The notes under the pieces were generated by a model. The model did no database searches, was not told the origin of the DNA, and saw only the letters and a program-made list of their open reading frames with translations. Positions 20,632 through 24,905 of a DNA stretch of 64,000 nt are shown here, in pieces. Each line of letters starts with the position of its first letter. The first letter of the stretch is position 1. The translations under genes and the position numbers were made by a program. Origin of the DNA: Leptolyngbyaceae cyanobacterium JSC-12 (GTDB lineage: Bacteria; Cyanobacteriota; Cyanobacteriia; Leptolyngbyales; Leptolyngbyaceae); contig CM001633.1 of assembly GCA_000309945.1 (NCBI GenBank), positions 2,142,292 through 2,206,291 on the forward strand, in the 5' to 3' direction.

Positions 20632-21705
20632 CTAATTTACATCATCCAACCATTGTAGAGGGGCGATCGCCGCATTGAGTGCTGCTGGGTTAACTCCGGC
20701 TCGATGAGCAGCAATCATACCCACAGCTTCCAGATAAGAATTTACCCGAACAGAGGCAATTCCCAATCGCTCGGGCGGCACCTGCATTGTGGTGTAGTTC
20801 TCACGAACAGCAATGATTAGAGGTCTCCCTACCCGCGAGTTCCCCAGATGCATAATGGCACTTCCGCCACATGCCGTGGCTGGGATCACAACAGCATCCA
20901 CCTGATCTGCCCAAATTTGGTCTTGAGTCAGGTTGTTTGCGGATTGGACAAATTGCGGAGCACGGCTAAGTCCTACTAAAACGCAGGGCAAAAAGGTATA
21001 ACCCAACTCTTCTGCAGCAGAACGCGGCGAAATAGTGGGATCAAGCGGCAGGGGGGCAAGGGCTGGGGCATGGGCACAGGGAATCCGAAATTCTCGAACA
21101 ATGAGGTGGCTGATTACAGCTTCGGCTCCTGCCAATGGATCGACTCCCTTTCCCTGCCGATAGTTTTGCAGAGCACACGTGCCGGGATCGTCTGGGAAGC
21201 GAGTGACCACCGCGATCGCAGTGGCTCCTGCTGCCTGGATGGCTCGTTCTGCTGCCCGGAGTAAGCTGTCTGGATTGGCGATCGTGCCCCAGGTTGCACC
21301 AGATGCTGCGGTTTTTAATGCCACCCCCAGAGGCGCGTCAGTCACCACATAATCAGTTAAATTAAGGCCCAGTGTAGCACGAGCTGCATCTGCCACTTGC
21401 AAGTGACGCACTCGCAGATCGGCTTCAATGCCCTGGTCTAAAATCAATCCAACTCGGTTCTGATGCACAAGAGCCAAGCCCCAATTCCCAGCAGCAAATT
21501 GATCAAGTCCAAAGCCCTCAACGTACAGAGCATTGGGCAGATTCCAGTAAAGTTGTGCTCCGTTCAGCACATTGGGATGAGTGATTAACCAGTCGGAAAC
21601 CTGAGCCAGCGATCGCGCCACAGGTAGTGCATCCCCCGCATAGCCACCAATCGCTGCCCCGATCCCCGTCGGCACAATCAAAACAGTTGTATAAGGACGC
21701 CTCAC
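20632..21705 (-). CDS. DUF3326 domain protein
   Basis: The 357 residues match the cyanobacterial/plant DUF3326 family: N-terminal TTVLIVPTGIGAAIGGYAGDA, a central YVVTDAPLGVALK, the cysteine in FPDDPGTCALQ, and VVIPATACGGSAIMHLGNSR. The pattern of conserved Gly, Asp and Cys suggests an enzyme, but no reaction is known to me. It overlaps the upstream 62-residue gene by 4 bases, so the two are translationally coupled, and it sits in the ferredoxin-cyclase operon. Confidence 0.82.
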   Translation of the reverse strand: MRRPYTTVLIVPTGIGAAIGGYAGDALPVARSLAQVSDWLITHPNVLNGAQLYWNLPNALYVEGFGLDQFAAGNWGLALVHQNRVGLILDQGIEADLRVRHLQVADAARATLGLNLTDYVVTDAPLGVALKTAASGATWGTIANPDSLLRAAERAIQAAGATAIAVVTRFPDDPGTCALQNYRQGKGVDPLAGAEAVISHLIVREFRIPCAHAPALAPLPLDPTISPRSAAEELGYTFLPCVLVGLSRAPQFVQSANNLTQDQIWADQVDAVVIPATACGGSAIMHLGNSRVGRPLIIAVRENYTTMQVPPERLGIASVRVNSYLEAVGMIAAHRAGVNPAALNAAIAPLQWLDDVN

Positions 21706-21987: not shown

Positions 21988-22311
21988 TTATTTCTGGGAT
22001 TGTCCAAACTGAAGTTGATAAACGGTATCTTCCTTTTCTGTCTCAACCTTCAAATCTGAACGTGGGTAAGACACACACAAAAGGGCATACCCCTGTGCCT
22101 GCAACTCAGGGCTGATACCCATCCCATCTGCTTGGTCAACTGTTCCTTCTAACAGTTGAGCAGCACAGGTCGTACAAACTCCAGCATGACAAGAGCTAGG
22201 CAAATCTAAGCCAGTTGCATCTGCGACTTCCAAGACCGTTTTATCTTCAGGAACTTGGAGCGTGTGAACGGTACCTTGATGATGAATTTCGACTGTGTAT
22301 GTCTGTGCCAT
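21988..22311 (-). CDS. Plant-type [2Fe-2S] ferredoxin
   Basis: The 107-residue ferredoxin has the cluster ligands C41, C46, C49 and C79 (SSCHAGVCTTCA … LLCVSYP), the C-x4-C-x2-C…C spacing of photosynthetic-type ferredoxins. It is slightly longer than PetF (about 97 residues), with an extended C-terminus (VYQLQFGQSQK). It is therefore likely a specialised isoform rather than the main photosynthetic carrier. It is 84 bases downstream of a cyclase whose N-terminus is also a ferredoxin domain, and the two probably share a transcript. Confidence 0.93.
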   Translation of the reverse strand: MAQTYTVEIHHQGTVHTLQVPEDKTVLEVADATGLDLPSSCHAGVCTTCAAQLLEGTVDQADGMGISPELQAQGYALLCVSYPRSDLKVETEKEDTVYQLQFGQSQK

Positions 22312-22395: not shown

Positions 22396-23442
22396 CTACT
22401 CATGGTGCCTGAAACATTTTTGAATCGAATTCCACAGAGCAGCCCACCAACGAGGAAACCGGGAAGGTTGCCCCAACCCAGATGTCGCAGTTTTGGGTAT
22501 AAGGGTAGCATCGTAAGCAGGCGAGGAAACCACATCGCTTACTTCGTAGAGACAATATTCTCCACTTTTGCCCGGTAGCTGCACCTTGAATTGACGGTTT
22601 ACGATAACGTGTGCTTTGGTTTCTTGAAACGCTTCTTCTGAGATTAGCAGGTTTGTGCCTAGCTTTTTGTTGGCAGTTTCGATCCGGCTTGCTAGGTTAA
22701 CAGCATCGCCAATCGCAGTCATTTGGGGGCTTTCCGGATCTCCAATCGTGCCAATCACAGTGTCACCATAATGAATCCCAATGCCAATTTTTAAGCGGCG
22801 CTGATAGAGCATTTCCAGCGAAGGATTGAGATCCTCGACAGCCGCTAGCATTTCGACTCCAGCACGAACAGCCCTTTCAACCGCCCGGTCTGGGTTTTCC
22901 ACACCAAATAGCGCCATGAACCCATCCCCCATGTAAATGTTAATCGTACCGCTATGCCGATTGATCACTTGTGCCATGCGTTGGAAATAGCGATTAAGGA
23001 CGTAAATTACGTCGTAGGGGGGGAGCGCTTCGGCAAACGCCGTAAAACCACGAATATCGGCGAACAAAATCGCGACGGATTTTTCCTGCCCCAATAGCCG
23101 AGAGACAATTTTCCCTGATGCCTGGTCAAAAAACAATGCCATATCTTCTGCATCCAGGGAGAGCCGTCTTAATGCAATTTTACCCTGTTGGGCGATCGCA
23201 GTCTGGCACGCTAATCTCACGCGCGGTTCAAACCCCATTTGTGTTGCCAGTTCTTGCTCTGCTGGGGTACGAGGAGCACAATATTCCTGTCCTTCCAAAA
23301 TCACGACGCGACAGGTAGAACAACGAGCATTCCCACCGCATACATGAGTATGGGGGATTCCAGCTTCTAGAGATACTTCTAGTAGGGTTGAAACGAGATC
23401 TACCTCAACCAAGCGATGGTCGGGTAAGTAATAAATTTGCAT
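22396..23442 (-). CDS. Ferredoxin domain - class III nucleotidyl cyclase fusion
   Basis: Residues 1-95 form a [2Fe-2S] domain (C35, C41, C44, C79), and residues about 120-310 form a class III adenylate/guanylate cyclase domain. Metal-binding aspartates are D129 (LFADIRGFTA) and D173 (MGDGFMALFG). The transition-state Asn and Arg are in GDAVNLASRIE (N249, R253), and the adenine-selecting Thr is at 242. The Lys usually found in the NKxxGD motif is Ile169 (NIYMGD), which may alter nucleotide choice. The tail of about 35 residues is unconserved-looking. The fusion suggests that cyclic-nucleotide output is coupled to redox state (inference). The complete IS begins 81 bases upstream and may separate the gene from its original promoter. 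Confidence 0.9.
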   Translation of the reverse strand: MQIYYLPDHRLVEVDLVSTLLEVSLEAGIPHTHVCGGNARCSTCRVVILEGQEYCAPRTPAEQELATQMGFEPRVRLACQTAIAQQGKIALRRLSLDAEDMALFFDQASGKIVSRLLGQEKSVAILFADIRGFTAFAEALPPYDVIYVLNRYFQRMAQVINRHSGTINIYMGDGFMALFGVENPDRAVERAVRAGVEMLAAVEDLNPSLEMLYQRRLKIGIGIHYGDTVIGTIGDPESPQMTAIGDAVNLASRIETANKKLGTNLLISEEAFQETKAHVIVNRQFKVQLPGKSGEYCLYEVSDVVSSPAYDATLIPKTATSGLGQPSRFPRWWAALWNSIQKCFRHHE

Positions 23443-23564: not shown

Positions 23565-24905
23565 TCAACTGGGGAGGAGAGCTTGTAAAATCTGTTCATT
23601 TGTATGTCCGTGAGAACATCGCGTCACAATGAATTGCAGCAAATCATCAAAGGCTTGACGAGTGAGGGTATAGAGCTTCTGTCCCACCGTTTGCTTGCCT
23701 TGAGCAAACTCAAATCGTTCAGATTGTGCGCCAGAACAGGCAGTCCGTTGCAGAATCGACTGCGCCACGCAACTAAGACGGAAGTGACGGTTGACCGCTT
23801 CCTCGTTCCGCACCTGAGCCGACTCTAGCCCGGTGTGCTGTTTGCTCACCTCATGAAAGACCTCGCAGGACCATCGATAACTCCAAGTCTGCATGACTCG
23901 CCCACTTTCCCAATGCAACGCATCGGTGAGCAGGAAGCGAGGTGGGTCTTGTAAATCTGCTTGCTCGTGGACGATGACCAATCGCTTGCGTCCAAACTTC
24001 TTGAGGCGCACGACTTTGGTAAATGCCCAAATCGGTTTCGTTTCGCCGTTGCGGCAAGTGACTTGAATCGGGCGAAAGCTCTCTGGGTGATGGATTCTGA
24101 GTTCTAAACCAATCGCATCTACCCGTTGCCATTGGTCATTCCACAAGATGTTGCGAGAACTTTCAACTTCACTCACCCAGTGTTTTCCTGCGGACTCAAT
24201 CATGGTGGTTAACTCAACAGTCAACACCCCATTGTCAAACGCATAATCGGCGGTGGGAAATTGTCCTTCCGCTTCCACTTGGCGCACAATCTCGACGGCA
24301 ATCTCGGTGCGTTTGCGATACTCCAATCGATTCTTGTGATAATGCAACATCTCAATCAGTCGTTCTCGCACTTGGTCTAAATCGTCATAGTGGGATTTTG
24401 CCGTCACCTTCAGATACTCCCGTTCTGCCACTGAAAAATCTGGAAACTGCACCACCACGTCAATCCCATCAATTAGGTGGCGGTTCGCAATCGTCGCCGT
24501 CACCACCGTTTGAAAGCAACTCATCCGATGTTCCACATAATCATAGGATCGCTTCACCCCAAAGATCTGCTTGCCCCAATCGTGATGGCTGAGCGTCCAA
24601 TCCAGACTGATGACTTCTCGCCCTCGCCCCTGATGCTCTTTGGCTATCACAGCACGATGATGGGACATTAACTCTGAACTCCTCCAGCCCGCCTCAAACA
24701 CCGCTGCGTGCATCGCTCTTCGTCCGCCGACCTCCCCACCTGCTACCCATTGTCCGGCAATCCCTTGCAAGGTTTTGTTCTCACTCAACAGCAATCCGGT
24801 CACATAGCGACTCACCTGCTCAAAGCCTGCGCCTCGGCAGAACAGGTCTCGATATTTCCCAAACTCTTGAGCAATCGTCGATGGCACAGCGACAAAGGGC
24901 AGCAT
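23565..24905 (-). CDS. DDE transposase, IS4/IS701-like (complete)
   Basis: This full-length 446-residue transposase starts at ATG (MLPFVAVPSTIAQEF). Its first acidic motif is in SLDWTLSHHD, the second region is AFDNGVLTVEL, and the C-terminal R-x3-E-x6-K signature is in YRWSCEVFHEVSKQ. It is residue-identical to the visible 416 and more residues of copy 1, with no stop or frameshift, so it is presumed functional. The stop lies 42 bases inside the left inverted repeat. The gene points toward the ferredoxin-cyclase operon. Confidence 0.92.
   Translation of the reverse strand: MLPFVAVPSTIAQEFGKYRDLFCRGAGFEQVSRYVTGLLLSENKTLQGIAGQWVAGGEVGGRRAMHAAVFEAGWRSSELMSHHRAVIAKEHQGRGREVISLDWTLSHHDWGKQIFGVKRSYDYVEHRMSCFQTVVTATIANRHLIDGIDVVVQFPDFSVAEREYLKVTAKSHYDDLDQVRERLIEMLHYHKNRLEYRKRTEIAVEIVRQVEAEGQFPTADYAFDNGVLTVELTTMIESAGKHWVSEVESSRNILWNDQWQRVDAIGLELRIHHPESFRPIQVTCRNGETKPIWAFTKVVRLKKFGRKRLVIVHEQADLQDPPRFLLTDALHWESGRVMQTWSYRWSCEVFHEVSKQHTGLESAQVRNEEAVNRHFRLSCVAQSILQRTACSGAQSERFEFAQGKQTVGQKLYTLTRQAFDDLLQFIVTRCSHGHTNEQILQALLPS

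Follow-up and report, generated by a model that had tools for sequence, protein, structure and literature searches.

The closest described parallels to the protein considered here are cyclases preceded by a ferredoxin. CyaC of S. meliloti is reported (PMC10463352) as a redox-regulated protein comprising a heme-binding six-helix (diheme) anchor, a [2Fe-2S] cluster, and a cyclase, the activity of which is altered by quinone oxidation. In PMC4821796, cluster 1 comprises 30 alpha- and betaproteobacterial class IIIb adenylate cyclases in which a ferredoxin is interposed between a 6TM anchor and the catalytic domain. On the cyanobacterial side, the word ferredoxin has zero occurrences in both a review of second messengers in these organisms (PMC4284465) and a signaling census (PMC1183210). 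A further point of comparison is the guanylyl cyclase Cya2 of Synechocystis, which reportedly has Gly at the second base-contacting position and a Tyr within its pocket.

The window that we analyzed is a stretch of 64,000 nucleotides from the Leptolyngbyaceae cyanobacterium JSC-12, whose genome is a single contig of 5.53 Mb. Positions 22396..23442 of this window hold a gene for which the initial annotation gave no strand; its open reading frame lies on the minus strand, as do all the features placed by coordinates below, begins with ATG, and encodes 348 amino acids (stop codon included in the coordinates), the plus strand of the same interval being interrupted by stops. That annotation had proposed a fusion of a [2Fe-2S] domain to a class III cyclase, which is borne out by Pfam matches above the curated cut-offs for both Fer2 (PF00111; residues 12-83, E 7e-10, 39 bits against 21) and Guanylate_cyc (PF00211; residues 120-292, E 3e-24, 86 bits against 21.9). 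A match across the two domains recurs in a sister species, at 82% identity, and in another ten genomes, at 57-75%, so the fusion is not a product of chance.

The N-terminal ferredoxin domain (residues 3-92; 23167..23436) carries four Cys residues that motif and alignment identify as cluster ligands, namely Cys35 (23338..23340), Cys41 (23320-23322), Cys44 (23311-23313), and Cys79 (23206-23208), in the arrangement C-x5-C-x2-C-x34-C. The C-x5-C-x2-C spacing, which we take to be that of adrenodoxin/ISC-type ferredoxins, is common to this domain and TIGR02007 (fdx_isc), the top NCBIfam match of the fusion protein. Because that match reaches 42 bits against a cut-off of 132, the domain is a fused, divergent relative rather than the ISC ferredoxin itself. 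A linker (residues 93-118; 23089..23166) separates it from a class III cyclase homology domain spanning residues 119-305 (22528..23088), the closest solved structure to which is 2w01, Synechocystis Cya2 (E 1e-31); the matched 2w01 chain contains nothing that corresponds to the ferredoxin. As in the 6TM-ferredoxin class, and in CyaC as far as its description allows the two to be likened, the ferredoxin immediately precedes a class IIIb cyclase domain.

The cyclase domain retains both metal-binding residues, Asp129 (23056..23058) and Asp173 (22924..22926), and the transition-state residues Asn249 (22696..22698) and Arg253 (22684-22686), all of which the initial annotation had correctly reported as intact. 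It further has Lys259 (22666-22668), presumably the phosphate-binding Lys; for Asn249, Arg253, and Lys259 we assume the customary catalytic roles. Equally accurate was the earlier observation that the usual Lys is replaced by Ile169 (codon ATT; 22936..22938), within the motif TINIYMGD, while Thr242 (22717..22719) is kept at the second base-contacting position. A Thr at this position we take to be a mark of class IIIb adenylyl cyclases, and T242 conforms to it; the adenine-selecting Lys that likewise defines the class is absent from the JSC-12 protein. The same genome has 17 Guanylate_cyc matches, and among the 13 other class III domains that were read at the base site (three more lie outside the comparison), 11 have Lys, two have Glu, and none has Ile, Val, or Asn.

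A search of 388 evenly drawn Cyanobacteriia genomes recovered relatives in 52 of them, at 54 places (E<=1e-45); here and in a second cyanobacterial search considered below, the five best candidates per genome were scored, making the counts lower bounds. In the class to which an alphaproteobacterial match belongs, 47 of 190 genomes had a match, at 49 places, mostly as long open frames (E<=1e-40). The 54 cyanobacterial proteins were aligned with 32 alphaproteobacterial ones (29 of the 49 places read directly, L080 by way of its twin L038, and L039 and L040; 19 of the 49 places are outside the counts), and four plasmid-borne relatives were added later. L034-L037 and L080-L083, being second copies, were excluded, as was L041, the match of which stops short of the ferredoxin; some open frames, such as that of L077, extend upstream of the likely start. 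The four cluster Cys residues are present in all 86 aligned relatives and the cluster spacing is kept in 90 of 90, with C-x5-C-x2-C-x34-C in 89 and x35 in one. The long alphaproteobacterial forms, which by their architecture we assign to the 6TM class, are 33-43% identical to the JSC-12 fusion protein and share its Thr at the second base site, but they have a hydrophobic N-terminal part and, in 32 of 33, Lys at the first base site, whereas the cyanobacterial proteins lack both and often possess an amphipathic C-terminal tail.

Hydrophobic N-terminal segments number two to seven in the 33 long forms read and zero in all 54 cyanobacterial proteins, that of JSC-12 included, which is hence devoid of the six-helix heme-binding anchor of the CyaC type. 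The same is true of three relatives from outside the cyanobacteria, the alphaproteobacterial L084 and the plasmid-borne L113 (Hymenobacter volaticus) and L114 (Rhizobium etli 8C-3), which lack hydrophobic N-terminal segments as the cyanobacterial proteins do and are placed together with them at the deepest split of a quick tree (support 100, starred). In L114 (plasmid NZ_CP017244.1, L114:1483-2877), a single frame combines Fer2 and Guanylate_cyc with a Rieske [2Fe-2S] domain at its C terminus, such that the cyclase, with Asn at its base site, is flanked by two iron-sulfur domains.

At the opposite end of the protein, residues 325-348 (22399..22470) form an amphipathic, aromatic, and basic tail, a feature absent from the initial annotation. 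In a test comparing the best 18-residue hydrophobic moment within the C-terminal 30 residues with that of 1000 shuffled versions, 27 of the 54 cyanobacterial proteins reach p<=0.05 (15 of the 25 with an intact metal site and 12 of the 29 without one, a division to which we return below) versus one of 35 non-cyanobacterial ones; L114 was left out on account of its extra domain, and with related sequences being non-independent, we give these figures as counts with no joint probability. When 300 shuffles were used in a previous run, 30 of 54 tails passed, that of the JSC-12 protein among them. The tails have a median net charge of +5 in metal-intact members, +4 in those with a dead site, and +1 in non-cyanobacterial proteins, and a median of three, three, and zero W/F/Y residues, respectively, in the last 22 positions. 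Half of the cyanobacterial set has tails above 0.05, and four members of one dead subgroup (L033, L068, L073, and L074) have net acidic tails. An AlphaFold model from a seven-row alignment places a helix at residues 331-347, with a mean pLDDT of 46, too poor for the base pocket or the domain interface. The C-terminal amphipathic basic helix is probably a membrane tether, and the simplest reading is that it functionally replaces the N-terminal anchor of the long forms in the cyanobacterial proteins.

The base site sets the cyanobacterial proteins apart from their long relatives. Lys occurs at position 169 in none of the 54 cyanobacterial relatives, and the 25 metal-intact members have Asn (14), Val (10), or Ile (one), whereas Lys is present in all but one of the 33 long, membrane-anchored forms read from the alphaproteobacteria; the exception, L099, has Asn and occupies a long branch. 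A single clade with starred support unites the 11 Val/Ile members, all of which come from JSC-12's own family f1. Of the three soluble relatives from outside the cyanobacteria, L084 has Lys, L113 has Asp, and L114 has Asn. The fewest-changes count at the site is five, a figure that does not distinguish gain from loss. As read from the alignment, variability at the base site is a mark of the soluble branch, and the change from Val to Ile is a conservative one. Given the absence of Lys from all 54 cyanobacterial relatives read, Ile169 is, on the same alignment, part of a clade-wide change to Asn, Val, or Ile. D129, D173, T242, N249, R253, and K259 are invariant among the 25 cyanobacterial members with an intact metal site, in accord with the earlier expectation of a likely active enzyme. 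Since these six residues are kept while residue 169 varies, catalysis seems to be under selection in the metal-intact members, with base selection alone altered.

The remaining 29 of the 54 cyanobacterial members, which likewise escaped mention in the initial annotation, lack both metal-binding Asp residues; Asp129, for instance, is found in none of them, and the JSC-12 protein, with D129 and D173 in place, is not of their number. They constitute a single clade (support 100/100) in a tree built without columns 129, 169, 173, 242, 249, and 253; the clade is recovered in 100% of 200 bootstrap trees and in quick trees with starred supports of 100 and 99. The quick trees place it next to L053, a member with an intact metal site, at unstarred SH-aLRT values of 88 and 92. 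An origin of the dead clade as an alignment artifact was ruled out, as a second model built from six of its members recovers the identical 52 of 388 genomes and 54 places (E<=1e-40). Among six dead members scanned, five pass the Pfam Guanylate_cyc cut-off and L079 fails. The clade keeps N249 and R253 together in 12 of 29 members and K259 in six of 29, and this additional loss of K259 (23 of 29) and of the full N249/R253 pair (17 of 29) where the metal site is gone suggests active catalysis elsewhere in the family.

All 29 pseudo-cyclase members keep the four cluster Cys residues, and 29 of 29 have the clade-specific fixed residues D137, F141, and Y214. Mean column conservation in the linker is 0.68 in the pseudo-cyclase clade versus 0.55 in the metal-intact clade, and that of the cyclase domain is 0.57 versus 0.73. 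In one pseudo-cyclase genus, 21 pairs gave a median dN/dS of 0.071 for the cyclase domain and 0.033 for the ferredoxin (simple Nei-Gojobori estimates from seven of the eight members of the genus, with L067 left out); the cyclase domain of the dead clade is under purifying selection in the genus tested. Five other dead pairs had cyclase-domain values of 0.094-0.155 and five metal-intact pairs values of 0.023-0.112, with some dS estimates near or past saturation (L001/L019 and L042/L043). By their sequences, then, the pseudo-cyclase members look like proteins maintained without a metal site, unlike decaying genes. Should the metal-dead clade prove to be a true pseudo-enzyme, proteins scored as cyclases in databases would produce no second messenger and would merit study as redox proteins. 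The domain pair and its likely principle are known, while the architecture, the base-site states, and the pseudo-enzyme clade are apparently undescribed. We did not find the soluble cyanobacterial branch, its Lys-less sites, or the pseudo-cyclase clade in the open-licence literature; a subscription paper might describe them.

We regard it as somewhat probable, from the sequence comparisons, that the JSC-12 protein is a class IIIb-like nucleotidyl cyclase that is soluble, probably tethered to the membrane, and controlled by its own [2Fe-2S] domain, in a family that later gave rise to a pseudo-cyclase clade. The protein would form a homodimer, as is the case for class III cyclases generally. Photosynthetic or respiratory electrons, or oxidants, would shift the cluster between redox states, and the ferredoxin would relay this shift through the linker to the cyclase dimer, so that more or less cyclic nucleotide would be made close to the membrane. 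Such redox control is plausible by analogy with S. meliloti CyaC, which is reported as redox-regulated. In place of the missing Lys, for which the JSC-12 protein has Ile and its relatives have Val or Asn, Thr242 and the walls of the pocket would hold the base, and the product is expected to be mainly cAMP with weakened base discrimination. In a second course, one cyanobacterial clade would have lost its metal sites and kept the cyclase fold as a noncatalytic partner of the ferredoxin. If redox-controlled, these proteins would offer a possible redox-to-second-messenger switch in oxygenic phototrophs, in which a link between the state of electron transport and cAMP or cGMP is of standing interest.

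The expected product leans on a mutant of Ma1120, K101E/D157T, that has no Lys and a Thr at the second site. In PMC4215837, its kcat/Km for ATP is ~14-fold that for GTP (3.16 versus 0.227), and at pH 7.5 its adenylyl cyclase (AC) activity is 84% lower and its guanylyl cyclase (GC) activity 236% higher than in the wild type. As this mutant keeps its preference for ATP and gains GC activity, mainly cAMP with looser selectivity is predicted for the JSC-12 protein, whose hydrophobic residue falls outside the mutants compared. The drop in AC activity on loss of the Lys also means that the product could, by the same analogy, shift from cAMP. The initial annotation had suggested cAMP, cGMP, or another cyclic nucleotide; the altered site behind this suggestion is real, but the site alone does not indicate another product, given the ATP preference of K101E/D157T.

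Several other readings of the same residues have to be weighed. It is very improbable that we are dealing with an ordinary adenylyl cyclase bearing a neutral private mutation at residue 169: Val to Ile within the genus would indeed be a conservative step, but the orthologues, which such a mutation would require to carry Lys throughout, show it in 0 of 54, and Asn (14) and Val (10) dominate the metal-intact half, which refutes the private-mutation part of this account. A sequencing slip at the site is likewise ruled out by the Val or Asn of the 24 other metal-intact members. Rescue within a heterodimer by a partner from the family supplying the Lys was also rejected; two genomes (G207 and G321) each hold one metal-intact and one metal-dead member, and all four proteins lack it. 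A guanylyl or other-base cyclase, for which Ile, Val, or Asn in place of Lys would be a new specificity code, is an improbable candidate. Cya2 pairs a Glu at the base site (by alignment) with the Gly and Tyr reported for it, against Ile, Thr, and Ser252 here; Thr242 is retained as in the Lys-bearing long relatives; and Ma1120 K101E/D157T still favors ATP by kcat/Km. These points stand against the status of Cya2, a guanylyl cyclase, as the closest solved structure, the lack of Lys in 54 cyanobacterial members with Val/Ile fixed in 11 members of f1, and the GC activity gained by Lys-less Ma1120 mutants. Membership in the Cya2-type guanylyl cyclases themselves was rejected, with Ile169 and Thr242 present instead of Glu and Gly.

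Catalysis might also be marginal across the soluble cyanobacterial branch, the proteins serving mainly as iron-sulfur proteins, whether electron carriers or redox switches, in which the role of the cyclase fold is to dimerize or bind, as it must be in the pseudo-cyclase clade. We hold this to be unlikely, since a pure scaffold would have no need of D129, D173, N249, R253, and K259, which are kept in all 25 metal-intact members. It is nevertheless in keeping with the absence of the base-selecting Lys in 54 of 54, the loss of both metal Asp residues by 29 of 54 in a single clade that retains all four Cys residues, the purifying selection on the dead cyclase domain where it was tested (median dN/dS 0.071, 21 pairs), and the fixation of D137, F141, and Y214 in 29 of 29. 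With no Lys169 in the cyanobacterial set and a metal-dead sister clade beside the active-looking one, catalysis may be less important than assumed. Returning to the preferred reading of a redox-controlled cyclase with a later pseudo-cyclase clade, we tentatively envisage a series that would run from a redox-responsive membrane cyclase, through soluble, helix-tethered, and base-promiscuous forms in which the Lys was lost (to Asn and then Val/Ile), to a pseudo-cyclase of redox signaling or electron transfer, the fold of which might dimerize or bind a ligand with no cyclic nucleotide being made. The family could serve as a natural series for asking what role the base-selecting Lys plays and why enzyme domains are retained past catalysis.

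The gene neighborhoods show no family-wide shared neighbor or link to a cAMP pathway among the 54 loci, in flanks of 1.5-3 kb (less at contig ends); the most widespread neighbors, which belong to a broad dehydrogenase-like family and vary in position, are present at eight of 54. In the JSC-12 window, a gene for a plant-type [2Fe-2S] ferredoxin (21988-22311, minus) starts 84 bp past the cyclase stop on the same strand and has the motif C-x4-C-x2-C, unlike the C-x5-C-x2-C of the fused domain. Within flanks of 1.5-3 kb, this pairing is found among the 54 loci only in JSC-12 (L001) and the same-genus L019. Downstream of the plant-type ferredoxin and a 62-aa open reading frame lies a gene for a DUF3326 protein (20632-21705, minus; 572 bits). 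On the other side, ~80 bp upstream of the cyclase start, is an insertion sequence (23522 to about 25014; transposase open reading frame 23565-24905, minus), which occurs in at least 40 places in the JSC-12 genome at 100%, this one included (40 of 133 candidates scored), and is missing at the corresponding site of a same-genus genome. It may affect the cyclase promoter.

In one pseudo-cyclase genus, a same-strand DUF5996 gene ends 16-26 bp before the matched pseudo-cyclase stretch (L061:2007-2864, and in the same place in L032, L057, L059, L064, and L067, while in L062 it is farther off) and is preceded by a gene for a double glyoxalase-fold protein, both assignments coming from Pfam on one copy of each. 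Two other cyclases of the JSC-12 genome, L002 and L003 (G000:C1:1076674 and 944835), share with Cya2 a Glu at the base site, on account of which the JSC-12 host may make cGMP.
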